A DNA stretch of 62,900 nt. Source: a virus. Under the pieces are notes generated by a model that saw only the letters and a program-made list of their open reading frames with translations, was not told the origin of the DNA and did no database searches. Position 1 is the stretch's first letter, and each line of letters opens with the position of its first letter. Shown piece after piece: positions 7,393-32,508 of this stretch. The translations under genes were made by a program, and so were the position numbers. The stretch spans positions 1-62,900 of IMG/VR virus record IMGVR_UViG_3300031857_000168. One strand, written 5' to 3'.

Positions 7393-7421
7393 TTGACATG
7401 CAAAAACGAAAAGACTAGACT
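7393..7421 (+). promoter_or_regulatory. Late promoter 1 (packaging operon)
   Basis: TTGACA, 17 bp and TAGACT form a strong sigma70-like promoter. Ten bases after the -10 comes CCTTGCGCCC, also found at the same place in the promoters at 13837 and 32430. A terminator then follows before the first gene at 7509. Confidence 0.8.
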
Positions 7422-7467
7422 TTTTGCGGGACCTTGCGCCCAAAATTTCTTTGCAAAACCACTGAAA

Positions 7468-7492
7468 AGCCGCTCAACCGTAGCGGCTTTTT
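7468..7492 (+). terminator. Leader terminator of late operon 1
   Basis: AGCCGCT and AGCGGCT form a 7-bp stem followed by TTTTT. It lies ~45 bases after the expected transcript start and 17 bases before the first start codon, so downstream expression implies read-through or antitermination. Confidence 0.75.
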
Positions 7493-7508
7493 GCTTTTGG
7501 GAGCCATG

Positions 7509-7760
7509 ATGGAACGGATCACAATCGAAGTTGCTGACGATGGTCGCGTGACCGTCACGGCTGAGAGCCCCGGCGAAGCCGGAGACGAAATGGAAACGAT
7601 GGACTTTGACTCAGTCGAAGAAGCGGTTGGCGCTGTGCGTGAACTGATGACCGACGCAGTCGAAGACGCTGGCGAGATGGAAGGCGGCGAGCCTGACATG
7701 GAAACCATGTGGAACGAAGAGGCATCAAAGCGTCCGCCTCAATCAAACCTTATGACCTGA
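7509..7760 (+). CDS. Acidic 83-residue protein
   Basis: MERITIEVADDGRVTVTAES begins a beta-hairpin-like segment, followed by a strongly acidic helix rich in E, D and M. The second of two adjacent ATGs is chosen because GGGAG lies five bases upstream. It is first in the packaging operon. No known domain. Confidence 0.78.
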   Translation: MERITIEVADDGRVTVTAESPGEAGDEMETMDFDSVEEAVGAVRELMTDAVEDAGEMEGGEPDMETMWNEEASKRPPQSNLMT

Positions 7761-7774
7761 CCAAGGAGAACACC

Positions 7775-8014
7775 ATGCAAGATTATTCAAATCCAAAAAG
7801 CCGCAACGAAATGCGTGCTGTTGGCGAGAAGCTGAAGTCCGGCGCGCCAATCGGCGGTGGCGGTAACCAAAACCAAGGTAAGGGCGAACTGCCTGCCAAA
7901 GTGTCGGTGCCTATGCCCGGCACGAACGCAACGCAGCCCCCGTACAAAGGCGGCATGAAAAAGAACGTGCCCGGTTTTGGCGGCGGTGTGATCGAAGGCA
8001 AGATCAACGTCTAA
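7775..8014 (+). CDS. Gly/Pro-rich 79-residue protein
   Basis: MQDYSNPKSRNEMRAVGEKL, then a glycine-rich, low-complexity C-terminal half (KKNVPGFGGGVIEGKINV). AAGGAG precedes the start. Its stop overlaps the next start as TAATG. It is probably a small virion or accessory protein; function unknown. Confidence 0.78.
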   Translation: MQDYSNPKSRNEMRAVGEKLKSGAPIGGGGNQNQGKGELPAKVSVPMPGTNATQPPYKGGMKKNVPGFGGGVIEGKINV

Positions 8015-8196
8015 TGCCTAGCACATCTGCCAAGCAGGCCCGTCTCATGGCGGCCGCTGCGCACAATCCTGAGTTTGCCAAAAAGGTGGGCGTGCCACAA
8101 AAAGTGGCGCAGGATTTCAACGCGGCCGACAAGGGCGGCGGGCTTTTACGGAGCGCGATGCAAGATGGCCAGAAAAAAAGACGCGGCAAGGCTTGA
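8014..8196 (+). CDS. Basic 60-residue protein
   Basis: MPSTSAKQARLMAAAAHNPE leads a basic, helical protein ending in KKRRGKA. Similar short proteins are common beside phage terminase genes. Its end overlaps the small-terminase candidate by 32 bp. Function unknown. Confidence 0.75.
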   Translation: MPSTSAKQARLMAAAAHNPEFAKKVGVPQKVAQDFNAADKGGGLLRSAMQDGQKKRRGKA

Positions 8197-8626
8197 CGAG
8201 TTGAACGGTGCACCACCGAAGCTGGCTTCGTCTGCAGACCTGCAGGCTGCCGGCCCCAAGGGCAACCGTCGTCACGCCATCGAGTCCAGCACTGGCAACA
8301 AACATCCGCTAAAGATCAATCTCAAAGCAGTCTCCGAGGCTCTGGTGGAAGAGGGGCTCGATCCAGCGATCGAGTTCGCGCGCATTCTCAAAGGGCGCCC
8401 CCTTTTCGATGAGGACGGCAACCCGATAATTGACCCTGCCACAGGGCAACCGTTGCGCCGATACGCGATCGACGAAGATGTTCGAGCGCGCATGCTGTCA
8501 GAGATTTTGCAATACACGCAGCCGAAGCTGAAGGCAGTTGAAGTCAAGCTGTCCGGCAGTCTGGAGTTGACTAGCGAACAGCTGGACCAGCGACTGGGCG
8601 CGCTACTGCAAAAGGCGATGAAGTGA
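8165..8626 (+). CDS. Putative terminase small subunit
   Basis: This 153-residue protein starts MARKKDAARLDELNGAPPKL and ends in a helical tail (YTQPKLKAVEVKLSG, then EQLDQRLGALLQKAM) of the sort seen in phage packaging small subunits. It immediately precedes and overlaps (GTGA) the large terminase. It would bind phage DNA and load it onto the motor. No clear HTH is visible, so the call rests mainly on position and the C-terminal pattern. Confidence 0.72.
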   Translation: MARKKDAARLDELNGAPPKLASSADLQAAGPKGNRRHAIESSTGNKHPLKINLKAVSEALVEEGLDPAIEFARILKGRPLFDEDGNPIIDPATGQPLRRYAIDEDVRARMLSEILQYTQPKLKAVEVKLSGSLELTSEQLDQRLGALLQKAMK

Positions 8627-10089
8627 ATCTAGCAAACATCGACATCACGAAGCTGAGCGAAGACGACAAGCGCGAGTTGTATGATTTGCTGCGGTTGAAA
8701 GACATCCGCGCAAAACGCAATCGCCTGTCAACGTACAAGCCCTACGCCAAACAGATGGACTTCCACGCGGCCGGGGCGAGCTTTCGTGAGCGCTTGTTCA
8801 TGGCAGGTAACCAGCTAGGCAAGACGTGGGCCGGTGCGTTTGAAGCTGCGATGCACGCAACCGGGCGCTACCCTGCTTGGTGGACCGGCCGCCGCTTCCC
8901 ATATGCGACTCGAAGCATGGTTGGGTCCGAATCTGGCGAACTGACTCGAAAGGGCGTGCAGCGTTTGCTGCTTGGGCCGCCTGAGATTCGGGAAGAGTGG
9001 GGCACCGGCGCCATACCGTATGACTGCGTGCGCGATACCAGCATGAAGGCCGGCGTGCCTGACGCCGTGTCCAGCATTGTGGTGCGCCACGTGTGTGGCG
9101 AAGACAGCGTAATCCAATTTAACTCATACGATCAGGGCCGCACGAAGTGGCAGGCTGACACGGTCGACTTCGTCTGGTTTGACGAAGAACCGCCACCGTC
9201 GATTTACTCTGAAGGTTTGACGCGTACAAACGCAACCAACGGTCTGGTGTTTGTGACGTTCACGCCATTGCTGGGTATGTCCGAGGTCGTCAAGCGCTTC
9301 TTGCTGGAGAAGCCGCAGAGCGCTACGACGATCACGATGACGATCGACGATGCCGAGCACTACACGCCCGAGCAACGTGCAGCGATCATCGCGTCTTACC
9401 CTGAGCACGAACGTGAGGCCCGGGCCAAGGGCATTCCGATTCTGGGGTCTGGCCGGGTGTTCCCGATTGTCGAGGACGGCATCAAGGTGCAGGCGTTCCC
9501 GATCCCGCCCCACTGGCCGCGCATCGCTGGCATCGACTTCGGTATCGACCATCCCACCGCTGTGGTGTGGATGGCATGGGACCGTGACGCTGATGTGCTG
9601 TACGTGACTGATTGCTACCGCGTCAAAGACCAGTCGCCGATCATGCACGCCGCCGCTGTTCGTGCCCGGGGTGAGTGGGTGCCAGTGGCTTGGCCGCACG
9701 ACGGTCTGCAGCGCGACAAGGGTTCCGGCGAACAACTGGCAAAGCAATACCGTGATCAGGGCCTAAACCTGACCAAGGACCGCGCCACGTTCGACGATGG
9801 CAGTAACGGCCTTGAAGCCGGTGTGGCCGAGATGCTGGCCCGCATGCAGACCCAGCGCTTGAAGGTCTTCGCGCATTTGCAGGACTGGTTCGAGGAGTTC
9901 CGTCTGTATCACCGCAAGGATGGTTTGATTGTGCGGTTGACGGATGACTTGATGTCTGCAACCCGTTACGCGATGATGATGCGCAGATTTGCAAAGACGC
10001 AGGAAGAAGCAGAAACTCGTCTTCGCCGCAACACCATGCCCGCGCCAGACCTGTCGTTTGGCGTGCTTGATCAAGACATGGGGTATTGA
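8623..10089 (+). CDS. terL: Terminase large subunit
   Basis: This 488-residue packaging motor has Walker A AGNQLGKT (residues 61-68), Walker B FVWFDEE (D187, E188, E189) and an RNase H-fold nuclease start GIDFGIDHPT (D305). It pumps DNA into the prohead and cuts it. The GTG start overlaps the preceding stop as GTGA. Length is normal for the family. The headful or site-specific cutting mode cannot be told from the sequence. Confidence 0.96.
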   Translation: MNLANIDITKLSEDDKRELYDLLRLKDIRAKRNRLSTYKPYAKQMDFHAAGASFRERLFMAGNQLGKTWAGAFEAAMHATGRYPAWWTGRRFPYATRSMVGSESGELTRKGVQRLLLGPPEIREEWGTGAIPYDCVRDTSMKAGVPDAVSSIVVRHVCGEDSVIQFNSYDQGRTKWQADTVDFVWFDEEPPPSIYSEGLTRTNATNGLVFVTFTPLLGMSEVVKRFLLEKPQSATTITMTIDDAEHYTPEQRAAIIASYPEHEREARAKGIPILGSGRVFPIVEDGIKVQAFPIPPHWPRIAGIDFGIDHPTAVVWMAWDRDADVLYVTDCYRVKDQSPIMHAAAVRARGEWVPVAWPHDGLQRDKGSGEQLAKQYRDQGLNLTKDRATFDDGSNGLEAGVAEMLARMQTQRLKVFAHLQDWFEEFRLYHRKDGLIVRLTDDLMSATRYAMMMRRFAKTQEEAETRLRRNTMPAPDLSFGVLDQDMGY

Positions 10090-10090
10090 G

Positions 10091-10474
10091 ATGCCTGAAG
10101 CCAAAATCGCCAAAGACCCGCATGGGTATCCAGTCGATCTGAAACGCCCCATCGTCACTGACAAAGAAGGGGTTCACACTGAAGTGTCGATCACTGAAAA
10201 GATCGGCGACAAATACGTGAACCTGCCCAGCGTTTGGAATGGCAAGCGTTTGGACCCAAGGAAGAACGAAGACTATGCCGAGATCATGCGCAACTACGAA
10301 TCGGAGAAAAGCCGTGGCTGGAAATTCCCGGAATTCAAAGATGAAAAATCGGCTGTAGACGCAGCCATAGCCCGATCAAATTACATTGGCAAAGTTCGTC
10401 GCAAAGAAATTCTTGACGCAGAGAAGCGCATGTGGGATGACGAGGCTGCCAAACGCAAACAGGCAAAGGATTGA
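10091..10474 (+). CDS. Unknown 127-residue packaging-region protein
   Basis: MPEAKIAKDPHGYPVDLKRP starts a charged protein containing VNLPSVWNGKRLDPRKNEDY and a long C-terminal helix. Similar modules occur fused to or beside phage and polyvalent proteins. It starts one base after the terminase stop. Role unknown. Confidence 0.82.
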   Translation: MPEAKIAKDPHGYPVDLKRPIVTDKEGVHTEVSITEKIGDKYVNLPSVWNGKRLDPRKNEDYAEIMRNYESEKSRGWKFPEFKDEKSAVDAAIARSNYIGKVRRKEILDAEKRMWDDEAAKRKQAKD

Positions 10475-10476
10475 CC

Positions 10477-10863
10477 ATGGCACAGAATCCATTTAACCCG
10501 GCCACCAACACGGCCAACATCATGTCATCAATGACACCGCAAACGGATCAGTTTGCGAACTTTAGCGGCCAGAACAACCCCTTCAATCCGCAGCCGCCAA
10601 AGCCCACCAGTATTGCAAACGTCAGCGGCAATCAGTTCAAGCTGAACATGCCGGGGGTCTCTGAACAGCCGGACCTGTCGCGCGCCCCTTCAGCGGAACC
10701 TACGGTCAAACCGGTGTCGATGGATGCCGGGGTATCCAGCGGTATGGCTGCGCCGAATCCTAGCGCCCCAGCGCCGGCCATGGCACCGCAGGCGTACTCC
10801 ACCCAGTCAACCCAAGCAGCACAGCAGACAGGCTTGATCCGTGGCGCTGTGAGGCCCGTATAA
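10477..10863 (+). CDS. Disordered Pro/Asn/Ala-rich 128-residue protein
   Basis: MAQNPFNPATNTANIMSSMT begins a low-complexity protein with two NPFNP motifs and a Pro/Ala/Gln-rich tail. AAAGGA lies just upstream of ATG 10477. It sits between terminase and portal, so a structural or assembly role is plausible. Confidence 0.78.
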   Translation: MAQNPFNPATNTANIMSSMTPQTDQFANFSGQNNPFNPQPPKPTSIANVSGNQFKLNMPGVSEQPDLSRAPSAEPTVKPVSMDAGVSSGMAAPNPSAPAPAMAPQAYSTQSTQAAQQTGLIRGAVRPV

Positions 10864-10878
10864 CCAAGGAAGCACCCT

Positions 10879-13263
10879 ATGCAAAACCAAATTGAAGCCG
10901 TGGACGTCGACATCGAAGTTGAGTACGAAGACCCGGAAGAGCAGCGCGCCAAACTGGAGGAGCGGCTTCAGGTGTTCGGGCACAACCTGTCCAAGCAACG
11001 GGATGAATGGGTTCGCAGCCGCTACGCCTATGGCGTAGACAAGCGCTGGCTGCAAGATGAGGATCAGTACAACGCGAAAGACAACATCAACAAAGCCGCC
11101 AGCCAGATGATGACATCGGTTGAGCAAGGTTATCCAGTTACAACGCAAGGCGCTAAGCCGCATCGTTCGACGGTCTTTATCGGTATGACGCGTCAAAAGA
11201 CGAACGCCGCCGAAGCACGACTGGCCGACATCCTGTTGCCCACAGATGACCGCAACTGGGGCATTCAGCCTACGCCAGACCCGTACTTGTCACAGATGGC
11301 CAAGGACAGCCGACTGGTTGACCAACTGCCACCACAGATCAGTGCCCGGTTCGGCCAACACCTTGGGATGGGGGCGCCGATGCAAATGCAAGCGCCTATG
11401 CCACAGGGCCCGATGCCTACGCCGGCTGCAGCACCGATAACGGTCCCCGGTCAACCGCCTGAGCAAGGTATGCCAATGCCGGGCAATGTCACACAGATGC
11501 AGCCGCCACAAAAGCTGCGGATGAAAGACATCGCGCGGGAAGTGATGGACTTGGCCCAACGTAAAGCCGATGCGATGACCCGCGAGATCGACGACCAGCT
11601 AGTCGAGTGCGACTTCAACGGCGAGCAGCGCAAAATGATCCACGACGCTGCCGTGTTGGGCACCGGCGTGCTGAAGGGCCCGATCGTGATCAACCGCGTG
11701 CGGCGTGCATGGCGCCCATACACCGACATGTCGGGCGCTACCATCCACCAAATCGAGGTCGTCGAAGAGCGCAGCCCAGCTACCTTCCGTGTCGATCCTC
11801 GCAACGTGTGGCCTGATCCTGCATGCGGTGAATCAATCCACAACGGCAAGGGCGTTTACGAACGCGAGCAGCTGACCGCCAAGCAGATTCGCGATCTGGC
11901 CAAGCAGCCCGGGTACATGAAAAATCAACTGCGCAAGGTGTTGGAAGAAGGCCCGAAGAAGTCTGCCACCATGGAAGAGCTGAAGGATGAAGATCAGCGC
12001 GACATGACCAAAGACATCTATGAGCAGTGGACTTATTGGGGTGAGGTTGAATACGATGACATGATTGCCGCAGGCGTAAACCCCGGCGAGCATGACGAGC
12101 TGCGCACCATCAGTGCTTGCGTGGTAATGATCAACAGCACCGTGGTTAAAGCATTTTTGAACCCGCTTGAAGGCGGCGACCTGCCGTACGACTTCTACGT
12201 TTGGGAGAAGGTTGCCGGCTCAGTGTGGGGTTACGGCATCCCTTACCTGATGCGCAGCCAACAGAAGGTCCTGAACGCTGCATGGCGTCAAATGATGGAC
12301 AACTCCGGCGTCAGTTCAGGCCCGCAGATTGTCGTCAAACCCAGCGTCATACGGCCTGCCGACAAACAGTGGCAGCTGTCAGCGCGAAAGATTTGGTACG
12401 CGACAGACGACATGGACGACGTGCGCAAAGCGTTCGCGACGTTCGAGTTCAACAGCCACCAGACAGAGCTGGCCGGCATCATCAAGATGGCCACCGAGTT
12501 GGCAGACGCCGAGACCGGTGTGCCGACCATCACGCAAGGCGAGAAGGGCGCAGCGCCAGACACGGTTGGCGGTATGCAGATGCTGATGAACTCTGCAAAC
12601 GTCGTGCTGCGTCGATTGGTCAAGCAGTTTGATGACATGGTGACCAAGCCACACATCCGTCGCTATTACGACTACAACATGCTTTACAACGAAGACGAAG
12701 AGATCAAAGGTGATTTCACCGTCGACGCGCGCGGTACCAGCGCTCTGTTGGTGCGCGACATCCAGAATCAGGCATTCCTAAACCTGCTGGCCGCCGGTGC
12801 AAACCCTGTGTATGGCATCTATCTCGACACGAAGAAGCTGTTTGAGAAAGCACTGCAAGCGCAGCACATCGACCCGGCCGAAGTTTTCAAACCTGAAGAA
12901 GAGATCGACCAGATCATGGAAGCGCAGAAGAAAGCAGCTGAACAAGGCCCGGGCCCAGACCCGCGCATCGAAGCTGCGAAGCTGCGCGCTCAGGCGGATA
13001 TGCAGAAGGTCCAAGTACAGAACCAAGGCGACCTGCAAGAGCTGCAGCTGCGTCAGGCAATTGCAGAGCAAGAAGCGCAAATGCGCATGGCTGAGATGCA
13101 GATGATGCGTGAGATCGAGATGCTGAAGATGGCCAACCAGCAGAACATCACACTGGAAACCATCAAGGCCCAGCTGGCTGACACTGCGATGAAAGAACGC
13201 AGCAAGAAGGAGCTGTTTGCAGCTGAACAGCAGCTGCGAATTCAGACCGGAGCAGGCATCTGA
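10879..13263 (+). CDS. Portal protein
   Basis: This 794-residue protein has the composition and position of a podovirus-type portal: an N-terminal helical segment, a Pro/Met/Gln-rich insert (~residues 165-215), a core containing WRPYTDMSGATIHQIEVVEE and FRVDPRNVWPDPA, and a Gln-rich coiled-coil tail from ~residue 700. Twelve copies would form the head vertex through which DNA enters and leaves. A good SD (AAGGAAG) precedes the start, and its stop overlaps the next gene as TGATG. Confidence 0.9.
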   Translation: MQNQIEAVDVDIEVEYEDPEEQRAKLEERLQVFGHNLSKQRDEWVRSRYAYGVDKRWLQDEDQYNAKDNINKAASQMMTSVEQGYPVTTQGAKPHRSTVFIGMTRQKTNAAEARLADILLPTDDRNWGIQPTPDPYLSQMAKDSRLVDQLPPQISARFGQHLGMGAPMQMQAPMPQGPMPTPAAAPITVPGQPPEQGMPMPGNVTQMQPPQKLRMKDIAREVMDLAQRKADAMTREIDDQLVECDFNGEQRKMIHDAAVLGTGVLKGPIVINRVRRAWRPYTDMSGATIHQIEVVEERSPATFRVDPRNVWPDPACGESIHNGKGVYEREQLTAKQIRDLAKQPGYMKNQLRKVLEEGPKKSATMEELKDEDQRDMTKDIYEQWTYWGEVEYDDMIAAGVNPGEHDELRTISACVVMINSTVVKAFLNPLEGGDLPYDFYVWEKVAGSVWGYGIPYLMRSQQKVLNAAWRQMMDNSGVSSGPQIVVKPSVIRPADKQWQLSARKIWYATDDMDDVRKAFATFEFNSHQTELAGIIKMATELADAETGVPTITQGEKGAAPDTVGGMQMLMNSANVVLRRLVKQFDDMVTKPHIRRYYDYNMLYNEDEEIKGDFTVDARGTSALLVRDIQNQAFLNLLAAGANPVYGIYLDTKKLFEKALQAQHIDPAEVFKPEEEIDQIMEAQKKAAEQGPGPDPRIEAAKLRAQADMQKVQVQNQGDLQELQLRQAIAEQEAQMRMAEMQMMREIEMLKMANQQNITLETIKAQLADTAMKERSKKELFAAEQQLRIQTGAGI

Positions 13264-13823
13264 TGGGCGGCAAAGTTCTCAAGCGCGAACTGGAAAGCTA
13301 CGAAAAGGCTTACCAGCAATATTTGCGCCGCGTCCGCGACTACAACAAAGAGTCGAAGGAATACAACAAAGCGGTCGAGTATTACAACGCGTCATTCGTG
13401 ATGGACGAGAATGGGAACAAGCTGGTCTATACGCCGGACAATCAGCTGATGGCGATCAACAGCGAAGGCAATATTGTTTCGGCCAAGTTGCCCAAACCTG
13501 AACCGGTGCAGACCACTACACAGAATCAGTACGGCATGGGGCAAACGCAGACCACGTATACGCCGCCGAATCCATACGAGCCTACCAGCGGTGCCTACGG
13601 TTCTCGTTCGCTTCCTGCGGGTGTTCAAACACTGGACGTCGGCGGCGGTTACAAAGCGCCACGGTCCTATGCGGCTGAAGCGCCCGGCGAGATGCCGGCG
13701 CAGCCGGCACCGCTAAGTATGCAAGCGCCGGACCCCACCCGGGCCCAGCTGCAAAAAGTAAATCAAGCCAATTGGTCCGACATAGAGCGCGGCCTGATTG
13801 GCCAAGTCATCAGGTCTAGATAA
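13263..13823 (+). CDS. Unknown 186-residue head-region protein
   Basis: The N-terminal ~45 residues form a Tyr/Lys-rich coiled coil (KRELESYEKAYQQYLRRV), then a Pro/Gln/Thr-rich region, then a short helix at the end. Translation is coupled to the portal gene. It may be a minor head or assembly protein; no family recognised. Confidence 0.8.
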   Translation: MGGKVLKRELESYEKAYQQYLRRVRDYNKESKEYNKAVEYYNASFVMDENGNKLVYTPDNQLMAINSEGNIVSAKLPKPEPVQTTTQNQYGMGQTQTTYTPPNPYEPTSGAYGSRSLPAGVQTLDVGGGYKAPRSYAAEAPGEMPAQPAPLSMQAPDPTRAQLQKVNQANWSDIERGLIGQVIRSR

Positions 13824-13836
13824 CAAAAAAATAATG

Positions 13837-13864
13837 TTGCATAAATCTGACACTTGGATATAGA
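13837..13864 (+). promoter_or_regulatory. Late promoter 2 (scaffold/capsid operon)
   Basis: TTGCAT (13837-13842) and TATAGA (13859-13864, 16-bp spacer) or overlapping TAGAAT (13861-13866, 18-bp spacer). The initially transcribed stretch again contains CCTTGCGCCC, 11 bases after the TAGAAT, as in the other two late promoters. Confidence 0.72.
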
Positions 13865-13867
13865 ATT

Positions 13868-13924
13868 GGCGCAGGGCCCTTGCGCCCTAATTTTTTGAGG
13901 GAGCCGGTGAAAGCCGGCTTTTTT
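13868..13924 (+). terminator. Double hairpin leader of late operon 2
   Basis: The first hairpin is GGCGCA/TGCGCC (13868-13886), followed by CTAATTTTTT. The second is GCCGG/CCGGC (13903-13918), followed by TTTTTT. Both lie between the promoter and the next start codon at 13930, an arrangement that calls for antitermination or only partial termination. Confidence 0.75.
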
Positions 13925-13929
13925 ATTGC

Positions 13930-14133
13930 ATGAGCGATTATCAATCTGCTACGTGGCACATGTTGCGCCGCTGGGCTGAAGCCCAGCTGCAGGCTTGCCG
14001 CGAAAAGAACGACGCTGTGGGGCTCTCCGACCTAGACACAGCTGTCCTGCGGGGCGAGATTCGCATGCTGAAAAGATTTCTCGACTTGCCCAATGCGGCA
14101 ACTCGGGGTGTGGTGGCTGAGCCGGACGAATAG
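13930..14133 (+). CDS. Unknown 67-residue helical protein
   Basis: MSDYQSATWHMLRRWAEAQL is helical and ends in an acidic tail. Such short proteins often precede scaffold genes in related phages. No obvious SD: the start lies in the 3' side of the terminator, so a weak or structure-dependent start is possible. Confidence 0.7.
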   Translation: MSDYQSATWHMLRRWAEAQLQACREKNDAVGLSDLDTAVLRGEIRMLKRFLDLPNAATRGVVAEPDE

Positions 14134-14155
14134 TCCCGCTTGGTCGTATGAAGTA

Positions 14156-14175
14156 AACCGCCTCGGCGGTTTTTA
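14156..14175 (+). terminator. Short terminator before scaffold gene
   Basis: ACCGC and GCGGT with a short loop are followed by TTTT, 13 bases before the chosen GTG start of the scaffold gene. It would reduce read-through into the capsid genes unless overridden. Confidence 0.6.
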
Positions 14176-14188
14176 AATGGAGAGCAAT

Positions 14189-15112: not shown

Positions 15113-15131
15113 TCATTGAAAGGAAATAGCA

Positions 15132-16190: not shown

Positions 16191-16196
16191 TCGAAC

Positions 16197-16215
16197 GCCG
16201 GGGCTTTGCCCCGGC
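16197..16215 (+). terminator. GC-rich hairpin after capsid gene
   Basis: GCCGGGGC-TTT-GCCCCGGC is a perfect 8-bp stem, five bases after the capsid stop. The U-tract is poor, so it may stabilise the capsid mRNA 3' end or only partly terminate. Confidence 0.6.
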
Positions 16216-16236
16216 ATCATTTGAAAGGAATACACC

Positions 16237-16431
16237 ATGGCTGAAAGCATCAATGCCCGCGTAAATCGGTTGGCGGATGGCATTGATCGTCAGGAACTGG
16301 CGCTTTTGTTAGCGTCCATTCTGACTGATCTGACTGCTATCAAAACCAGCCTGAATCAGTTGCGCACCGACTATAACGCTGCAACCACGCCGACCACGGC
16401 TGCTGCGGTGACTTTGAATACCACTTCCTAA
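16237..16431 (+). CDS. Unknown 64-residue capsid-adjacent protein
   Basis: MAESINARVNRLADGIDRQE is followed by helices and a Thr/Ala-rich tail. GAAAGGA precedes the start. Possibly a minor head protein; no family recognised. Confidence 0.72.
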   Translation: MAESINARVNRLADGIDRQELALLLASILTDLTAIKTSLNQLRTDYNAATTPTTAAAVTLNTTS

Positions 16432-16919: not shown

Positions 16920-16954
16920 GCAGGCCGTCCATTTTTTGGGCGGCCTGCTTTTTT
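16920..16954 (+). terminator. Strong intrinsic terminator
   Basis: GCAGGCCG and CGGCCTGC, extended by a few further pairs, form a long stem closed by ATTTTTT and followed by TTTTTT. It separates the capsid unit from the connector genes. Confidence 0.88.
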
Positions 16955-23287: not shown

Positions 23288-26248
23288 ATGGGTCTGCGGT
23301 TTGTTGGTAACGTGATGAAGCCGGGGTACAACCCACTGGCAGCTAATATAACTTCCGGCGTAAACACGGTTCAACATCAAGGTATCTTTACGCTACAACA
23401 ACAAGCCCGCGCAATCGCAAATCAGCAGTGGGCTACCGATCCTTATTTCGATTACACAACCCTGTTGATTCAAGCTGACAACGCTGCAAACGGTTTACAA
23501 AACGGCGCGTTCCTAGACAGCAGCACCGGTAGAACTGCAACAGGAACTTCATCTTCTATATCAGGCAATACACTTACTGTTGGCGGCACTGTCACCGGGT
23601 CATTCGCTGCAGGCATGACGCTGTCTGGCACAGGCGTGACGTCCGGCACTACCATCGTTGGTTATGGCACAGGCACTGGCGGCGCGGGTACATACATCGT
23701 CAATATTAGCCAGACAGTTTCAGCTACTAGCATATCGGGTTCAGGTGGGAATTACGTTACACGTAATGGCGGCGCGCCGGGGATGGTGCAAGGCAGTTTT
23801 TCTCCGTTTAGCGCAACAGGCTGGAGTAATTTTTTTGATGGGAATGATTATTTAACAGTCGCTGGTGGTTCTTCGCTTGCTTTTGGTAGTGGTGATTTTT
23901 CACTTGAGGCTTTTGTGTATCCGACAACAGCAAGTGGGACAAGAAAAATATACGACGGGCGACCAAATACGACAGCAGGAAATTACCCTGTTCTTCACAT
24001 AGATGGTAATAATGCAGTATTTTTTGTTGATACAACAGCGTTAATTACTGGAACAACTGTAATACCAGCAAACGCATGGACACACGTTCTAGTGTCAAGG
24101 GTTAGCGGCAATCTTCGTTTATTTATAAACGGTGTGCAGGACGGTTCTACAGTTTCAAATTCAATTAACTTCGCAAATGGAACTGCAAGACCAGCCATCG
24201 GTGTTCGTGGCTCTAGCCTAGCAAATGATTTTTTTACTGGCTACATTTCTAATGTTAGGGTAATTACAGGATCGGGTTTTACTTCGGTTACTGTACCAAC
24301 AACACCATTAACGGCAGTTTCAGGTACGTTACTTCTGACCTGCCAATCAAATCGGTTTTTTGATAGCGGAACAGCAAATTCAGGGTCAGGCTTTGCCGTT
24401 ACCACCGCAGGCAACCCATCCGTCCAAGCCTTCTCGCCATTCGCGCCACAGTATCAATATACGGCAGCAGGAGCAACTTCGTGGAGTGCTTCATTCGGAA
24501 CGTCGAATTATCTAGACTCTACATTCAACCAAGCATTTACTGGCACTACCAATTTCTGCTTTGAGACTTGGATGTATCTCACTGCCATGCCGACACAGGA
24601 GCAATTTTGGTTCTTAGGTGTTCAAAGCGGCATATTTTTTGATTCATGGGTTAACAGTTCGTTGGGCGTTGAAGTACGTATTAGTTCAAGCACTAATGCT
24701 ACACTGACAAGTACCTCCACAGTGTCGGTAAATGCATGGAACCACGTTGCTGTAACATTTGATGGTACGACTTTAAGAATCTTCATCAACGGTGTGCCTT
24801 CTGGTTCAACATCTTTTACGATGCCCACTGGCACTACTACCAGATACTTCGTTGGCTATAACGACTATTCTCCAGCCGCAAGATATTTTACTGGTTACCT
24901 TTCAAATTGGAGGGTATCCGTAGGAACTCCGCGTTATACAACCACTTTCACACCTCCTATCTCACCGTTATCTTCGGATGTGTATACGATAATTTTGCTG
25001 TTGCAGTCTGGTACCTTTATTGACACTAGTGGCAATAACAGAACGGTGGTAGTTAATGGTACACCAACTACGCAGTCTTTTTCTCCTTTCAATCGAATAG
25101 CAACAGGCGGGTCTGGGTACTTTGATGGGACGGGGGATTATTTAACACTTCCAAACAATGCCACTACAACTATAGGAACATCAGATTTTACTTTTGAGGG
25201 TTGGTTCTATACTCCAAGTGTCGCAACGCTTCAAACTTTGATGACGTATGGTTCTAGTGGTTGGCGAGTATTTATGAACGCCGCTGCTATTTGGTTTTTA
25301 AATGGATCAACTTCAATAATTAACACTGGCACTATTCAACCAAACTCGTGGATTCACATTGTTTTAGTTCGCAGTGGGTCTGGAAGTAACAACACAGCTT
25401 TGTGGATAAACGGATCAAGAATTACGCAAGCAACAAATACGACAAATTTTGCGGCTGGCGCTCCGCAGATTGGAATGGAGGGAACTACATCAAGTCCATA
25501 CACTGGCTATATGAGCAATGTTCGTTTAGTGAAATCTGCACTATACAACCCCGCAAATTCAACTATTACCGTTCCATCGCTTCCTTTTAGTAATGTCACA
25601 AATACAGCATTCCTCCTCAACTTCACCAACGCTGGTATTAGCGACGCATCTATGCGCAGTGTTCTTGATACGATAGGCAATGCGCAAGTAAGTACCGCCG
25701 TGGTGAAATATGGTTCAGGTGCCATGCTGTTTGATGGCACTGACGACCGGGTGTCAATTCCTACCAGTCAGTTTTTAGATTTGGGTGTTGGGGACTTTAC
25801 CATCGAATGCTGGGCCTATAACACCAATTGGGATACTGACCAGAATCAACTTTTTGAGCGCGGTCGATTTACCGTAGGTAAGTCTTATCGCGCTTGGATG
25901 AAGACAAATCAGATTGTCTTTGAAGTTAATTTAAGCGGCACCGCTACGGGCGGATATACCACTATTACTGCGACTATCAGAAACAACGTATTTCAGTGGT
26001 ACCACCTCGCTTTTGTTCGCAGCGGACCAAACTTTTATATTTATCGAGACGGTGTGCAAGTAGCCAGTGCTACGTCTACAGCAGCTGTATTTACAACTAC
26101 CGAAGCTTTGGCTGTCGGTGGTGCTGCTGATGGCAACAACAACATCATGATGAACGGTTACATTGATGACTTCAGAATAACTCGCGGTATCGCTCGATAC
26201 ACTGGATTAACTTTCACACCACCACAAGTAGCTTTACCGAGGCAATAA
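23288..26248 (+). CDS. LamG-array adhesin 1
   Basis: This 986-residue protein has about four LamG/concanavalin-like jelly-roll domains, each marked by a F(D/E)xWxY strand and a WxHVxxxR..GxxxxFINGV core (e.g. [37 protein letters not shown]). Such domains bind glycans, so this is a likely receptor-binding or appendage protein. About 65 residues near position 83-150 ([20 protein letters not shown] onward) look inserted into the first linker. The gene becomes AT-rich after ~23800. Confidence 0.85.
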
Positions 26249-26249
26249 C

Positions 26250-29096
26250 ATGAGCAACTACCCGGGAAAGATAATCACTAACAACGCTGATATCGGCTAT
26301 TCCGTTGTGTTTGACGGGACGGGGGATTATCTCTTTACAACAGGTGCCGCACTCGACACGGGCGCTGGAACAGCGGATATTACTTTTGAGTGTTGGGTGT
26401 ATAACAGAGGGTATTCCGGAAGCCAATATGGACGAGGCATTTTAGTTTTTTACCCATCTGCTGCTTATAATACAGACCGTTTGATGGTACGACTGGACTT
26501 TAACTCAAACGCGATTAACTGTTATTTAATTGTTGGTAGCGCCGCACAGTGGGGGATTAGCGGGACTAATTCGACTAGTTTGGCTACAGTTAACGCATGG
26601 ACGCATGTAGCACTTGTTCGTTCTTCACAGACTTTCAGGTTGTATATCAACGGAGTACTTGATACTACACTGCCAGCAACCACTGTAAGTCTTAATACCT
26701 TTGACACTTTTAATATTGGTAGAACGCAAGATGGGACGGTTCCTGATTTCGACGGCTATATATCTAATTTTAGATATGTCAAAAACACCGCCCTTTACAC
26801 CGCTGCGTTCACGCCTCCAACCCAGCTACTAAACATCACCAACACACAACTACTTACCTGCAACTCTCCGGCAATAGTTGACCAGAGTACCAACGCATTT
26901 GTCATCACAGCCAACGGCAACGCAGCAGTCAGCACCTTCACGCCCTTTGCCGCTTACAACCCTTACACCCCGGAACTTGGTTCAGCCTCGTCGGGGATAT
27001 GGTCTCTGAACGAGTTGATGGAACAAACACTGACTCGTCGTTCAAATAATTATGACCCTTACTTTACGTACAACTCACTTCTAATCCATGGAGCCGGTAC
27101 TGACGGTGCGCAGAACAATACTTTCTTGGACAGCAGCACCGCGAATAGCGGTAGTCCTTGGTCGCTAACGCGTAACGGTAATGTATACCAAGGTGCATTC
27201 ACTCCGTTCACTCGCACGGGCTGGAGCGTATACCTTGACGGTAACGTAAATATAAACAATCCAGCTGGATTGCCTACTGCTTTTGCTGGCTGGGGTGGGC
27301 GGACCAGAACTTTTGAGATGTGGTTATACAGAGAAGATTCTACTGCTGGGTGCAATTTACAGACGGCCTATGCTGCTGTTGTTGCTAACGGCCGCTGGAC
27401 AATAACTATAGACGCTAGTAGCCGACTTGATTTTGGTTGGACAACTAGCACAAGCAGCCAAGAAAGTGTTCAAACCGTAAACACCGTCCCTGTAGGTTCT
27501 TGGTGTCACATAGCCGTAGTAGTAGATTCTACGACTTCTACAAACACTACTATTCGCTTGTTTATAAACGGAGCGATGGAAACTTTTACTGGTAAAAATC
27601 TATCTACTCAAACATCTACCTACGGTTGGCAAAGTCTTTTTGGTTATGCGAGTTACACTTACGGCGCACCGGCGGGTTATTTCTCTAATTTGCGTTGGAG
27701 CAACAATCTTCGCTATACCTCGTCTTTTGCGCCCCCTACAGCAAATTTTACAAACGATGCAAATACGCTATACCTGATTGCCCAAGATTACAGATTAAGA
27801 GATAGAAGCAGCAACGCTTACACAGTTACTGTGGCTGCGGGAACCCCGCGCATAATGCCATTTGGTCCGTTTAACGCAAATACTTTAACTGCCTATCGCG
27901 ACACTACTGTTGGAGGAAGCGGCTTTTTCCCGGGCAGCGGTTCAAGCTATGTGGTTACAACGGATAGTTCAACCGCGTTTTTGCCGCAAACCACTACTAC
28001 GCCGTTCACTATTGAGTGCTGGGTTTATAACACGGGCACTAGCTCGACAGTGCTGTACGCTGCTATAGCCGTTGACAATTATGCTTACACCCTTGGTTTC
28101 GGTAGTGCCGTAGGAACCTATGACTCTACGCAAACACCGTGGTTTGGCGTGTACGGCTTTGGTTGGTCTGGTCTTCGATCCACGACACCAATACCGCTAA
28201 ATGCTTGGACTCACATTGCTTGTGTATTCACCGGCTCCACTTGCTACATATATCAAGACGGTGTCATGACTGCTTCGGGCGGCCCGAGTACATGGGAAGT
28301 TAAAACCGCTGGTAAAGTTCGTATTGGTTGTCGCCCCGACGCTGGTACCGATACATTTACCGGGTACATAGCTGGCGCGCGAGTTGTCATAGGCAGTAAC
28401 TTATACCCAAGTGGCACCACGTTCACTCCGCCTACCGCGCCGCCTACAAACATCACAAACACTAAGCTGCTGCTGAACTTTACTAACGCAGCAGTTATAG
28501 ATTCCACAGGGTTGAACATAATTGATACTGTCGGGCAAGGACAGATATCAACGTCGCAAAGCCGTTTCGGTCGTGGAAGCCTGTTTTCAGGGTCATCCAG
28601 CGGGGGGTTTATTGTTAGAGGCGAAGGGCTAAGTATCGCTTTTGGAAACGGTGATTTTACTATTGAGTTTTATGCGTATTTAACTTCCCTTGGTACTTGG
28701 GTGTTTGATACGTGCCCGGCCGGGGTTGTGGCTCCTACGAACCGAATATTATTGCAGGTTCAAAGCAGTGGTTCTGTAGACTATCTCACTTATCAGGGCG
28801 TCACTACTTTAATATCTTCAGGCGGTGGTGTTTTTTCTACTAACCGTTGGCACCACATAGCCTTGTGCAAAGCTAGTTCGCAAACCAGATTGTTTGTGGA
28901 TGGCATACAGAGAGGTTCTACTTACAGTGACACTTTAGATTATCCGGCACAATTAAATCGGCCAATTTTGTGCGCAGATGGTTACGCTGAAGGTTTTAGC
29001 GGCAACATTCGTATCGATGAACTTCGTATTACCCGTGGGTACGCGCGGTACAAAACTAATTTTAAACCCCAAACTTCTCGTTGGCAGGATCAATAA
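26250..29096 (+). CDS. LamG-array adhesin 2
   Basis: This 948-residue relative of the preceding gene starts two bases after it and also has about four LamG units (TFECWVYNR, FEMWLYRED, TIECWVYNT, TIEFYAYLT). A linker near residue 267-300 (DPYFTYNSLLIHGAG, then NTFLDSSTANSG) matches the linker near the N-terminus of adhesin 1, where the insertion sits. The pair probably arose by duplication. Role as for adhesin 1. Confidence 0.85.
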   Translation: MSNYPGKIITNNADIGYSVVFDGTGDYLFTTGAALDTGAGTADITFECWVYNRGYSGSQYGRGILVFYPSAAYNTDRLMVRLDFNSNAINCYLIVGSAAQWGISGTNSTSLATVNAWTHVALVRSSQTFRLYINGVLDTTLPATTVSLNTFDTFNIGRTQDGTVPDFDGYISNFRYVKNTALYTAAFTPPTQLLNITNTQLLTCNSPAIVDQSTNAFVITANGNAAVSTFTPFAAYNPYTPELGSASSGIWSLNELMEQTLTRRSNNYDPYFTYNSLLIHGAGTDGAQNNTFLDSSTANSGSPWSLTRNGNVYQGAFTPFTRTGWSVYLDGNVNINNPAGLPTAFAGWGGRTRTFEMWLYREDSTAGCNLQTAYAAVVANGRWTITIDASSRLDFGWTTSTSSQESVQTVNTVPVGSWCHIAVVVDSTTSTNTTIRLFINGAMETFTGKNLSTQTSTYGWQSLFGYASYTYGAPAGYFSNLRWSNNLRYTSSFAPPTANFTNDANTLYLIAQDYRLRDRSSNAYTVTVAAGTPRIMPFGPFNANTLTAYRDTTVGGSGFFPGSGSSYVVTTDSSTAFLPQTTTTPFTIECWVYNTGTSSTVLYAAIAVDNYAYTLGFGSAVGTYDSTQTPWFGVYGFGWSGLRSTTPIPLNAWTHIACVFTGSTCYIYQDGVMTASGGPSTWEVKTAGKVRIGCRPDAGTDTFTGYIAGARVVIGSNLYPSGTTFTPPTAPPTNITNTKLLLNFTNAAVIDSTGLNIIDTVGQGQISTSQSRFGRGSLFSGSSSGGFIVRGEGLSIAFGNGDFTIEFYAYLTSLGTWVFDTCPAGVVAPTNRILLQVQSSGSVDYLTYQGVTTLISSGGGVFSTNRWHHIALCKASSQTRLFVDGIQRGSTYSDTLDYPAQLNRPILCADGYAEGFSGNIRIDELRITRGYARYKTNFKPQTSRWQDQ

Positions 29097-29099
29097 GTC

Positions 29100-29438
29100 A
29101 TGCTTGAAGAAAACAAAGAAATGTCTATCGAAACTTCACTGGCGCTTCTGAATCACCGTGTAGAGGTTATGCACGACGATTTTACTGAAATGCGTGCAGT
29201 TCTTAAAGAACTGACTACAGCTATAAATAAGTTGACCGTAGTTGAAGAAAGGCAAACGCAATTTGCTGAAGCCCAAGAGCGGGCTTTTAACGTGATAGCA
29301 AAAATAGAAGAGCGGCTTACTGCTCTTGAAAAACGCGTTCCAGAAAATGACCGCGTAAAAGTTTGGGTCGATCGTAGCGTGATAGCTGTTCTTGGTGTAG
29401 TGTTTTTATTTGTTGTTAAGAAAATCGGGTTGATGTAG
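29100..29438 (+). CDS. XhlA-like coiled-coil membrane protein
   Basis: This 112-residue protein has an N-terminal coiled coil (VEERQTQFAEAQERAFNVIA) and a C-terminal membrane helix (SVIAVLGVVFLFVVKKIGLM). The layout matches XhlA-type holin partners. It opens the lysis and membrane-protein stretch. ATG 29121 is an alternative start. Confidence 0.7.
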   Translation: MLEENKEMSIETSLALLNHRVEVMHDDFTEMRAVLKELTTAINKLTVVEERQTQFAEAQERAFNVIAKIEERLTALEKRVPENDRVKVWVDRSVIAVLGVVFLFVVKKIGLM

Positions 29439-29450
29439 GAGGTTCCCAGT

Positions 29451-30170
29451 GTGGACCCAATCACCATTGCCGCCGCCTTTAAAGCCGCAACCACGGCCAT
29501 CGATATGGCGAAAAAGGGCGTGGCCCTATACAAAGAAATCAAACAAACCGGCGGAGATGTAAAAGACGTATTGCTTGATCTTAAAGATCAATTTAGTAAA
29601 TTAACCAACCCGTCGCAAGAACAGAAAAAGCAATACAACGAAGAAGTAAAAAGAATTCAAGAAATATCTACGGCAGACCCAAGACAAGTTCTTGACGATA
29701 TATGGGAGCATCTAGGAACTTTTGTAGATAAATACGACATCATGGTTAAAGCCTATGTGGCGTCCGAAGTATCTGCAAAAAAAGTATACAAAGGTGAAAA
29801 ATCTTTAGGTCGACGCGCACTGGAAAGATTAAAGATAAAACATCAATTAGATTCTATGCTGGCTGAAGTACGCGAAGAAATGGTGTACAACACCCCCAGT
29901 GAGCTTGGTGATTTGTGGACACGTTTTGAAGCAATGTGGACTACCATTGTTCGTGAACAGAACATAGCTCTCGCCGAAGAGATGCGGAAAGAACAGGTGG
30001 CGCGGTGGCAACGGGAAAGGGAGTGGGAGGAGGTAAAAGCAAAGGCGGTATGGATTGGGGCGGTAGTGTTCGTCCTGACATGGTTCAGCGGCCTCCTAAT
30101 CCTCCTGCGTCTGAGTCACACATACCGTGGTCTTTACTCATCACCTTGGTGGTCTTGTGTATTGTGTTAG
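29451..30170 (+). CDS. Unknown 239-residue protein, C-terminal membrane helix
   Basis: A GTG start behind AGGAGG encodes MDPITIAAAFKAATTAIDMA, then long charged helices and a terminal membrane segment (AVWIGAVVFVLTWFSGLLIL). Its last ~120 bases overlap another small membrane protein in a different frame. No family recognised; a lysis or membrane role is suggested by neighbours. Confidence 0.78.
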   Translation: MDPITIAAAFKAATTAIDMAKKGVALYKEIKQTGGDVKDVLLDLKDQFSKLTNPSQEQKKQYNEEVKRIQEISTADPRQVLDDIWEHLGTFVDKYDIMVKAYVASEVSAKKVYKGEKSLGRRALERLKIKHQLDSMLAEVREEMVYNTPSELGDLWTRFEAMWTTIVREQNIALAEEMRKEQVARWQREREWEEVKAKAVWIGAVVFVLTWFSGLLILLRLSHTYRGLYSSPWWSCVLC

Positions 30171-30343
30171 TAATCGCGCTCCCAGTAATGGGGGTTATGT
30201 ACATGGATATGAATAACGCTACTACGGCAGCAATTGCTGAGCTTGAAAGATTGAAAGAAGCACGCAGACGTTACATTAAAGAACTAAGAGGATTACAAGA
30301 TGCTTACGAAAACCCAACTCGCCCAAATGATAAAGGGCAATAA
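30050..30343 (+). CDS. Overlapping small membrane protein
   Basis: A 97-residue frame (MDWGGSVRPDMVQRPPNPPA) overlaps the end of the previous gene. It has one membrane helix (SLLITLVVLCIVLVIALPVM) and a coiled coil (AAIAELERLKEARRRYIKEL). A GTG start at 30005 would add 15 residues. Its end overlaps the endolysin gene by 44 bp. Holin-like or a spanin-type accessory. Confidence 0.7.
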   Translation: MDWGGSVRPDMVQRPPNPPASESHIPWSLLITLVVLCIVLVIALPVMGVMYMDMNNATTAAIAELERLKEARRRYIKELRGLQDAYENPTRPNDKGQ

Positions 30344-30929
30344 GTATGTTGATAATTGGTACGATGCTCTTTCTATTCTTTTGCCTGAGTACGATATTGA
30401 TTCTCCGAAACGTATTGCGGCTTTTATCGCCCAGTGCGCCCACGAATCCACTCATCGCGGGGTACCTTTCGCCGCGCTTGAAGAAAACCTCAATTACTCG
30501 GCGCAAGGTTTGCGCAAAACTTTCGGCAAGTACTTTCCGACAGATGAACTGGCAAAAGCTTACGAACGCAAACCTGAAAAGATTGCCAATCGTGTCTACG
30601 CTAATCGCTATGGAAACGGTCCAGAATCTAGCGGAGATGGATGGACCCACCGTGGACAAGGTTTAATCCAGCTGACTTTTTACGACAACTATAGAGACTT
30701 TGGTGAAAGTCTCGACCCAACGCTTTCGCCTAAAGAAGTGTCCGAATATTTAAAAACTTTCGAGGGGGCGTCCCAGAGCGCTTGCTGGTTTTGGGAGAAG
30801 TCAAACTTAAACCGATTCGCCGATAAAGGTGATATTCGCGGCATGACCCGCGTGATTAACGGCGGAGAAAACGGACTTGCAGACAGAGAGAAACACTATG
30901 CGCACAATCTTCATATTATGGGCGTTTAG
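30300..30929 (+). CDS. GH19-type endolysin (chitinase-like lysozyme)
   Basis: This 209-residue enzyme has the GH19 phage-lysozyme layout: FIAQCAHESTHR with catalytic Glu49, the downstream YANRYGNG, then THRGQGLIQLT and INGG. It cuts cell-wall glycan strands. No signal peptide is visible, so holin-dependent release is expected. AGAGGA precedes ATG 30300. It lies among holin-like genes and spanins. Confidence 0.93.
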   Translation: MLTKTQLAQMIKGNKYVDNWYDALSILLPEYDIDSPKRIAAFIAQCAHESTHRGVPFAALEENLNYSAQGLRKTFGKYFPTDELAKAYERKPEKIANRVYANRYGNGPESSGDGWTHRGQGLIQLTFYDNYRDFGESLDPTLSPKEVSEYLKTFEGASQSACWFWEKSNLNRFADKGDIRGMTRVINGGENGLADREKHYAHNLHIMGV

Positions 30930-31104
30930 TCTGGCATTAGCCGGGTGCGAACGCTACAGGTACCCTTGTCAGGACCCCGACAATTGGGAAAAGAAAGAAT
31001 GTAAAAAACCATATTGCACTACTACTGGAACTTGTCCTGAAGATGTAATGACTACTGACGATATGAAAGTGGACAACAATGAACCCGTTCAAACTAATCG
31101 ATAA
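30898..31104 (+). CDS. Cys-rich small lipoprotein
   Basis: MRTIFILWAFSLALAGC gives a signal peptide with lipobox LAGC (Cys17), followed by a Cys-rich mature part (PCQDPDNWEKKECKKPYC). The start overlaps the endolysin end. It is expected in the outer or inner membrane; its position suggests a lysis or superinfection role. Function unknown. Confidence 0.8.
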   Translation: MRTIFILWAFSLALAGCERYRYPCQDPDNWEKKECKKPYCTTTGTCPEDVMTTDDMKVDNNEPVQTNR

Positions 31105-31531
31105 GTTTTTAAGTCTGTCACAAGAACAGCATGACGCGGTTATTAAGTTTTGTATTGCGTTCACGTTCTGTTGCACAGTAGTGATTATGGTTGCCATCAG
31201 TCTGTATAGTGTCGTTTTTGTAACACAACCTATGCGGGGCATGGCGCCGGCGGACAAGCAGTTTTTTCTAATTCTGTCCGATATGTCGAAATACATACTG
31301 GGCTCGCTTGCAACTCTGCTTGCGGTCAAAGGGAAAGATGCTTTGCCCAAGTTCGTACCTGAAGGGTTGTCTACTGAAAAGGAACGACTGGCTGCCAGCG
31401 AACCGACAGCTACAGATAAGCCGAAGCGCAAAGAACCGCAGCTTGATCCTGTACCTGAAACCTTTATCATTACCGGGTTCCGTGGCAAAGCTGCCCCGGC
31501 ACCAGTTCAACATGACGTCCGCGACGAATAG
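31079..31531 (+). CDS. Holin-like membrane protein
   Basis: This 150-residue protein has two predicted membrane helices (VIKFCIAFTFCCTVVIMVAI and SKYILGSLATLLAVKG) and a charged cytosolic tail. Adjacent to endolysin and spanins, it is the best holin candidate, which would permeabilise the inner membrane. Other membrane proteins at 29100 and 30050 compete for this role. Confidence 0.65.
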   Translation: MNPFKLIDKFLSLSQEQHDAVIKFCIAFTFCCTVVIMVAISLYSVVFVTQPMRGMAPADKQFFLILSDMSKYILGSLATLLAVKGKDALPKFVPEGLSTEKERLAASEPTATDKPKRKEPQLDPVPETFIITGFRGKAAPAPVQHDVRDE

Positions 31532-31540
31532 GAGACTGTG

Positions 31541-31729
31541 ATGGAAAAATTACTTTGGGCTCGTATGGTGGTAACCGCAATCGCAAGCCTTGTGCTGGCA
31601 ACCAGCGTGCATGCCGGTGGCGAAATGAAAAAGGTCTGCCGCAAAGAAAATAAAAAGGGCAAAGAAGTTGAGACTTGCCGCATGGTCAAAGTCCATAAAA
31701 AGCTCGAAGGTACGGTTGTTCCAAAATGA
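31541..31729 (+). CDS. Secreted basic 62-residue protein
   Basis: MEKLLWARMVVTAIASLVLA then TSVHA is a signal peptide, followed by a Lys-rich, two-Cys mature part. GGAG lies six bases before ATG 31541. The stop overlaps the Rz start as ATGA. Periplasmic; role unknown. Confidence 0.75.
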   Translation: MEKLLWARMVVTAIASLVLATSVHAGGEMKKVCRKENKKGKEVETCRMVKVHKKLEGTVVPK

Positions 31730-32208
31730 ACCCGTACTTTATAGCCGGTAGTGTTATCGCTGTCGTGCTGGCGTACGGCGCCGGCCATTGGCAGGGAGAC
31801 ACTGCAGGGCAGGCGAAAGTCCAACAGGCTTGGGATAAGCAAGCCAAGGAACTGGCTGAAGCGCACGCGGTGGCGGTAGCCGCCGCGCGCGAGCGCGAAC
31901 AAGAACTTCAGCAAGGAGCGAACAATGACCGCGAAGAAAAGAATAAACAGCTGCGTGAAGCTAACGCTCGCGTTGCTGCCCTTACTAACGTCGTGCGCGA
32001 GCGTGCCGACCGTCCCGCCGAAACCGGTTCCGTGCCCGGTACCCCCAGCACTGGACCCGCTTCCGCCGGATGTACTGGAGCGGGACTATATAGGCCGGAT
32101 GGAGAATTTCTTATCGGGGAAGCTGCCGCCGGGCGCCAATGCCAAGCCCTCCTCAAAGAATGCCGAGCAGGGTACGAAAGATTTGAAAAATTGAGGAGAG
32201 ACCCATGA
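31726..32208 (+). CDS. Rz: i-spanin (Rz-like)
   Basis: This 160-residue protein has an N-terminal signal-anchor (FIAGSVIAVVLAYGAGHW) and a long periplasmic coiled coil (AWDKQAKELAEAHAVAVAAA onward). A smaller lipoprotein gene lies wholly inside it in the +1 frame, the hallmark of Rz/Rz1. With Rz1 it fuses the two membranes in the last step of lysis. This shows a Gram-negative host. Confidence 0.9.
   Translation: MNPYFIAGSVIAVVLAYGAGHWQGDTAGQAKVQQAWDKQAKELAEAHAVAVAAAREREQELQQGANNDREEKNKQLREANARVAALTNVVRERADRPAETGSVPGTPSTGPASAGCTGAGLYRPDGEFLIGEAAAGRQCQALLKECRAGYERFEKLRRDP
31925..32194 (+). CDS. Rz1: o-spanin (Rz1-like), nested in Rz
   Basis: This 89-residue frame is nested in Rz (+1). It has a signal peptide with lipobox LTSC and a Pro-rich mature part (VPPKPVPCPVPPALDPLPPD), both typical of Rz1 outer-membrane lipoproteins. 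AAGGAG precedes its start. Confidence 0.9.
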   Translation: MTAKKRINSCVKLTLALLPLLTSCASVPTVPPKPVPCPVPPALDPLPPDVLERDYIGRMENFLSGKLPPGANAKPSSKNAEQGTKDLKN

Positions 32209-32450
32209 CCGGCGCTTGGACCCGTAAAGAAGGCAAGAGCGAAGCTGGCGGCCTGAACGAGAAAGGGCGCCGGAGTTATGAGAGGCAGAACCCGGGCAGC
32301 GACCTCAAGGCCCCGCAGCCAGAGGGCGGCCCACGGAAGAAATCTTTCTGCGCCCGCATGCGCGGAATGAAAGCAAAATTGACAAGTGCCAAAACAGCAA
32401 GAGACCCGGACAGCCGCATCAACAAAGCGTTGCGGGTTTGGAAATGTTAA
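32205..32450 (+). CDS. DUF6321-like 81-residue protein
   Basis: The protein shows the phage family pattern AWTRKEGKSEAGGLNEKGR, then SFCARMRGMKAKLTSAKTAR and a Cys end. The family is common in phages and its function is unknown. It overlaps the Rz stop and ends eight bases before the TAGAAT of the third late promoter, so that promoter's -35 lies in its coding sequence. Confidence 0.82.
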   Translation: MTGAWTRKEGKSEAGGLNEKGRRSYERQNPGSDLKAPQPEGGPRKKSFCARMRGMKAKLTSAKTARDPDSRINKALRVWKC

Positions 32451-32458
32451 GGTAGAAT
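32430..32458 (+). promoter_or_regulatory. Late promoter 3 (ejection-protein operon)
   Basis: TTGCGG, 17 bp and TAGAAT. The CCTTGCGCCC motif starts 11 bases after the -10, as in late promoters 1 and 2. The -35 lies inside the end of the upstream gene. Confidence 0.75.
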
Positions 32459-32483
32459 TTTTGAGGGGCCCTTGCGCCCTTAA

Positions 32484-32508
32484 AAAAGCCGCCGTTTGGG
32501 CGGCTTTT
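32484..32508 (+). terminator. Leader terminator of late operon 3
   Basis: AAAAGCCGCC-GTTTG-GGCGGCTTTT is a perfect 10-bp stem with a T-rich 3' arm, 18 bases before the next start codon. The promoter-motif-terminator-gene order is the same as in the two other late operons. Confidence 0.78.

Follow-up and report, generated by a model that had tools for sequence, protein, structure and literature searches.

A Predicted Promoter-Proximal Pause Element Shared by Three Late Operons Suggests Q-Type Antitermination in a Clade of Uncultivated Phages

Introduction

How might a phage express its late genes when an intrinsic terminator stands between each late promoter and the first start codon behind it? 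The question is raised by IMG/VR record IMGVR_UViG_3300031857_000168, a 62.9-kb stretch of DNA from a podovirus-like phage with a genome of ~57.2 kb (the whole stretch analyzed here is referred to as the window). At three places in the window, a sigma70-like promoter is followed by a short common element and then by a terminator. A first-pass annotation, made from the sequence alone, proposed that these features form an antitermination system, named a zinc protein encoded at 2754 as a candidate factor, and likened the element to either a put-like RNA or a Q-type loading site. Q proteins are textbook agents of processive antitermination, and work on them has dealt with the single promoters of lambdoid phages. 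We report here that this phage probably governs late transcription by Q-type processive antitermination at three operons, a reading based on comparison of sequences and on a structural model.

Results

Promoter, spacing, the 10-mer CCTTGCGCCC, terminator, and start codon were all present at the three operon heads, each on the plus strand. Late promoter 1 (7393-7421; TTGACA at 7393, a 17-base spacer, and TAGACT at 7416-7421), which lies in the same place in relatives, heads the terminase-portal operon; behind it are element 1 (GGGACCTTGCGCCC, 7428-7441), with a consensus pause and a weak 5' hairpin, and leader terminator 1 (about 7465-7499), which is kept in relatives and stands directly before the operon's ATG at 7506. 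Late promoter 2 (13837-13866; TTGCAT at 13837, an 18-base spacer, and TAGAAT at 13861-13866) heads the capsid and tail operon, with element 2 (AGGGCCCTTGCGCCC, 13873-13887) and leader terminator 2 (about 13898-13923) directly before ATG 13930. Late promoter 3 (32430-32458; TTGCGG at 32430, a 17-base spacer, and TAGAAT at 32453-32458), followed by element 3 (GGGGCCCTTGCGCCC, 32465-32479) and leader terminator 3 (32484-32509) directly before ATG 32526, heads a third late operon whose first gene codes for a 749-amino-acid protein. Elements 2 and 3 each have a consensus pause and a 5' hairpin. Sites 2 and 3 have weak -35 boxes, and only promoter 1 is picked up by a plain consensus scan. The 10-mer is identical at all three heads (7432-7441, 13878-13887, and 32470-32479), at a distance from the -10 of 10 nucleotides (nt) at site 1 and 11 nt at sites 2 and 3; elsewhere in the window it recurs exactly only once, inside the second helicase copy (59679, minus strand). 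The gene that opens the capsid operon (13930) lacks a clear Shine-Dalgarno sequence between the U run of the terminator and the ATG, and the same holds for most relatives.

We then asked how the arrangement fares in relatives. A portal search found related stretches in IMG/VR (289 in all); the nearest isolate by portal was Pseudoalteromonas phage vB_Pun_Y3 (OR779980), at 32.5% identity, and a near-DNA search of phage records gave no match. For the capsid operon, upstream regions were located solely through homology of the gene that follows, which was found in 66 portal loci. Among the 49 distinct upstream regions, a -10 with the element was present in 47, against 0.5 expected from shuffled sequence, and a terminator in 43, against 0.07 expected; given this conservation, chance can be excluded as the origin of the sites. 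There were zero cases of a leader terminator without the element, while four distinct cases kept the element without a leader terminator; L138-L141 and L203 are relatives with this arrangement. Two relatives (L172 and L174) have neither, which leaves their promoter next to the start codon with almost nothing in between, and they provide a natural control. A scan of 81 loci for a promoter, a start-proximal hairpin, and a terminator gave 91 matches, all on the gene strand, and in the longer records the pattern marks the terminase, capsid, and third operons and nothing else. A scan blind to the element gave 58 distinct promoter-terminator pairs, 58 on the gene strand and 0 on the other; the element was present in 56 of the 58, the remaining two being one near miss and one false pair at an internal terminator. 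Loci fetched by an encoded relative of the 2754 protein alone yielded 31 sense and 0 antisense matches in 827 kb, with at least one match in 28 of the 42 loci that had enough downstream DNA. Promoter, element, terminator, and start codon are thus kept together at all three operon heads in IMG/VR despite sequence divergence, as the proposal of an antitermination system at these operons would predict. A search of IMG/VR with the -10 and CCTTGCGCC alone returned at least 120 stretches and was not used. Elements of the window type and of a GGGCGAAGTGCGCCC type belong to different clades.

The gene at 2754-3242 (plus strand) encodes a protein of 162 amino acids with a CxxC(x18)CxxC zinc motif, and a second copy, 97% identical, lies at 59971-60459. 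Its PHROG family is 127, "anti-termination protein Q-like" (E = 4e-7), which 11 of 11 aligned relatives match as well and in which lambda Q itself scores (E = 7.6e-83). A profile of the 11 relatives searched against all PDB sequences placed lambda Q first (7ubm and 7ubn; E = 7e-5), and an AlphaFold2 model (predicted local distance difference test score, 77) had as its sole significant PDB match 7ubn_Q (E = 2.9e-4), which is lambda Q in the engaged loading complex. In hhalign, the alignment spans residues 27 to 170 of lambda Q, and the C-terminal part differs. By profile, PHROG family, and predicted fold, then, the candidate factor of the first-pass annotation is a remote homologue of lambda Q and the proposed antiterminator. 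The gene was present in seven of seven records longer than 50 kb and, where the order could be read, lay a few kilobases upstream of the terminase operon. A tblastn search of phage records with one relative gave no match, and a genome scan with the profile found one contig only, from a metagenome-assembled genome.

Alignment of 30 elements from 13 phages on their core revealed G-10 in 30 of 30, T or C at -3 in 30, G-2 in 29, Y-1 in 30, and G+1 in 30, followed by C or T, C, and C. For the third-operon copies among the 30, the search pattern itself fixed G-10, Y-1, and G+1; the same positions were also seen in a set of 28 rows from the 81-locus scan, which had not been selected for them. The consensus elemental pause is G-10 Y-1 G+1 (PMC7876045), and at the level of sequence the invariant positions of the element match this consensus RNA polymerase pause. 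Lambda pR' (AACGATGGGTTAATTCG, with the pause at GGGTTAATTCG) has the layout GGG-N6-CG, as does GGG-CCCTTG-CG in the window. Assuming a start 7 bases after the -10, the pause is predicted at +10 or +11.

The near-palindrome at site 2 (GGCGCA-GGGCCCT-TGCGCC), which overlaps the transcription start, raises the idea that a dyad at +1 to +15 is a DNA operator for a repressor or activator of the late promoters, with the terminators serving some other end. The dyad is not constant across the sites and relatives, however; the constant part is an asymmetric TGCGYCC plus an upstream G, and an operator would leave the tight link between element and terminator unexplained. We regard this explanation as highly improbable.

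Folding of the RNA gave a 5' hairpin and then a terminator hairpin in all three leaders (z scores of -2.0, -2.6, and -2.9). At site 1, the 5' hairpin comes to only 3 bp (GGG/CCC), with an A-G mismatch next. Across the relatives, most copies can form a 5'-terminal hairpin, and pairing is weak or absent in some (site 1 of the window, the capsid site of L167, and several of the loci fetched by Q relatives). The 5' arm shifts by 1 to 2 bases against the fixed pause, and covariation was for this reason not read from a static alignment. With the arms scored in a free register instead, complementarity was 7.36, versus 6.57 in shuffles (permutation P = 6e-4, a value inflated by kinship of the phages), and compensatory arm pairs were found (GGGC/GCCC, GGAC/GTCC, GAGC/GCTC, and GGGAC/GTCCC). 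Since some copies pair poorly, we rank the predicted pause as the constant feature of the element and the hairpin as a frequent one.

These hairpin data bear on two further explanations. One is that the element acts in cis like put, the nascent 5' hairpin binding polymerase and making it resistant to terminators without a phage protein. The presence of the hairpin in most copies, the excess of arm complementarity, and the compensatory pairs are what such an RNA would give. However, the element measures ~15 nt and put ~70 nt with two stem-loops (PMC9378689), some copies pair weakly or not at all, a leader terminator would be pointless if the cis element were constitutive, and the phage encodes a lambda Q homologue; an Rfam search gave no match. 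A put-like mode is thus very unlikely, and of the two alternatives offered by the first-pass annotation, the Q-type site is preferred on account of the shortness of the element, the poor or missing pairing of some copies, and the Q homologue in the genome. The other explanation holds that the element is a 5' mRNA-stabilizing hairpin and the terminator a separate, leaky attenuator that sets the level of expression, without dedicated antitermination. The hairpin does begin at the predicted +1, and L138-L141 and L203 do have the element with no terminator. Still, stability would need neither the fixed distance from the -10 nor the invariant G-10, G-2, Y-1, and G+1, the hairpin is not always formed, a Q homologue is present, and in the capsid-operon set the terminator never occurs without the element. 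We consider this combination very unlikely, though slightly less so than a put-like RNA.

Within a phage, the elements of different operons resemble each other more than do elements of different phages (10.1 versus 9.2 of 14 positions; permutation P = 6e-4, likewise inflated by kinship), as expected of a shared trans-acting factor. The leaders could instead be small regulatory RNAs running from promoter to terminator with a common seed, CCUUGCGCCC; the units are short, the 10-mers in the window are identical, and folding gives a small-RNA layout. In the phages G003, G004, and G005, however, the seed varies among the operons of one phage, and the units always lie directly 5' of late genes. Short leader RNAs would in any case be expected from Q-type control; the 6S RNA of lambda is a short leader RNA of this sort. 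It is therefore most improbable that the leaders are small regulatory RNAs.

Q-type control would also have to act far beyond the leaders. Inside the capsid operon, a strong terminator (16920-16953, plus strand) separates the capsid genes from the remaining ones and is kept in 29 of 33 relatives, with the sequence of the stem changing. A second, smaller hairpin often precedes it. A new promoter 3' of this terminator was considered and rejected: the T run is followed by TTGGCA or TTGACG, but without a conserved -10. In the absence of a conserved promoter, the downstream genes would need read-through, which fits antitermination over kilobases better than it fits a local attenuator. The internal terminator may also set the ratio of capsid to tail gene expression.

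The ends of the window are not identical. Positions 1-5157 recur at 57218-62900 with 92 to 97% identity and with insertions and deletions, and the helicase gene, the Q-like gene, and the genes that follow are each present in two nonidentical copies. Because of the imperfect repetition, the window probably represents two strains joined in the assembly of a circularly permuted genome of ~57.2 kb. Elsewhere, 47456-48097 (minus strand) encodes a protein of PHROG 3704 (E = 4e-86), a family annotated as ferredoxin and placed in the auxiliary metabolic category.

Discussion

From the sequences and the model, we infer that the pause occurs, that the Q-like protein is the factor, that it loads at the element, and that the terminators act and are bypassed. 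Under this scheme, the host sigma70 RNA polymerase would start at the three late promoters and meet a consensus pause within the first ~10 to 11 transcribed bases. Without the phage factor, transcription would stop ~45 to 70 bases further on, at the leader terminator, and yield only a short leader RNA. Once the early gene at 2754 had supplied the lambda Q-like zinc protein, this protein would load onto the polymerase stalled at the element near the promoter and make it resistant to terminators. Read-through of the leader terminators, and of the one inside the capsid operon, would then switch on the terminase, capsid/tail, and third late operons at the same time.

Several observations weigh against this scheme. 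The start point is a predicted position, 7 bases after the -10. The lambda pause lies at +16/+17, and a pause at +10 or +11 would precede it by about 6 bases. The 2754 protein shares only ~20% identity with lambda Q and matches none of the Pfam Q families (PF03589 and others); its only Pfam matches are weak ones to the DnaJ CXXCXGXG zinc motif, under the curated cutoff. The strict pattern had no match in 14 of the 42 Q loci with enough DNA, and the inflation of both permutation P values must be counted here as well. Finally, known Q proteins depend on two signals, a site in the promoter spacer to which Q binds and a -10-like box (PMC9371919), and neither was seen in this phage: inspection of the 30 elements showed no -10-like box directly before the pause and no counterpart of the lambda box (AACGAT, 5' of GGG), and upstream of the -10 the window's three promoters have no word of 4 or more bases in common at a fixed place.

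Direct repeats or a spacer site were tried as a Q-binding element and rejected, as the promoters had nothing of the kind in common. Across the operon classes, the only conserved upstream columns are the TTG of the -35 and a purine at -4, a comparison in which a degenerate site could be missed. Because the three sites share ten bases in the element and no word of 4 or more upstream of the -10, the loading signal is most likely the element itself, within the first ~15 transcribed bases.

A widespread clade of uncultivated phages thus appears, by sequence, to combine a short Q homologue with three late promoters that have their sole common signal after the start. If so, several operons can be brought into one Q regulon with no need to rebuild each promoter, natural variants of a pause/loading element become available by the hundreds, and how Q finds its promoter becomes testable by sequence swaps. 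Among searchable open-licence papers we found no description of this element, which agrees, within that literature, with the first-pass annotation's statement that none of this form had been described; the general architecture is known from AlpA of Pseudomonas aeruginosa.

Among known systems, lambda Q/pR'/tR' shares with this one a Q protein (remotely homologous), a Q gene upstream of late operons, a sigma70 promoter, a promoter-proximal GGG-N6-YG pause, a leader terminator, and a long late operon. It differs in having one promoter instead of three, a leader of ~190 nt rather than ~45 to 70 nt, and a longer Q with another C terminus; in the present phage, no common Q-binding element was seen in the -35/-10 spacer and no -10-like box before the pause, which is predicted ~6 bases earlier. 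Phage vB_Pun_Y3 also has a Q family protein (PHROG 127; E = 1e-13) and a promoter, GGTAATTCACG, and a terminator at 2682, but only one such promoter was found, and the TGCGYCC hairpin element is absent. The vB_Pun_Y3 gene at L258:552-1136, annotated "molecular chaperone DnaJ," adjoins a Holliday junction resolvase gene; in view of the PHROG 127 match, its product is likely a misannotated Q. Phage 21 Q is a nozzle-type antiterminator that acts after loading at a promoter-proximal pause (PMC6606751), as is proposed here, but has an unrelated protein fold and uses a direct-repeat DNA site. The put RNA of HK022 (~70 nt, two stem-loops, and no phage protein needed) (PMC9378689) is likewise a nascent 5' structure just 3' of the promoter and linked to antitermination, whereas a single short hairpin of ~15 nt is found here. 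The ops site is a consensus pause whose nontemplate strand can form a hairpin and which recruits the antitermination factor RfaH (PMC5995543); with regard to pause and hairpin as a recruitment site, it is the nearest parallel, although ops works on elongating polymerase through a NusG paralogue, and the position of the present element is linked to the start of transcription at the promoter. AlpA, which lacks sequence homology to lambda Q, needs a GGGACG spacer element and a -10-like box (PMC9371919, PMC7969949), its site thus lying in the spacer, in contrast with a common element at about +1 to +15. In functional terms, AlpA is by analogy the nearest parallel: one Q-like antiterminator serves more than one promoter (those of alpB and PA0807), the leaders are very short, and the terminators, which begin 54 and 26 nt from the start, lie upstream of the first gene (PMC7969949).

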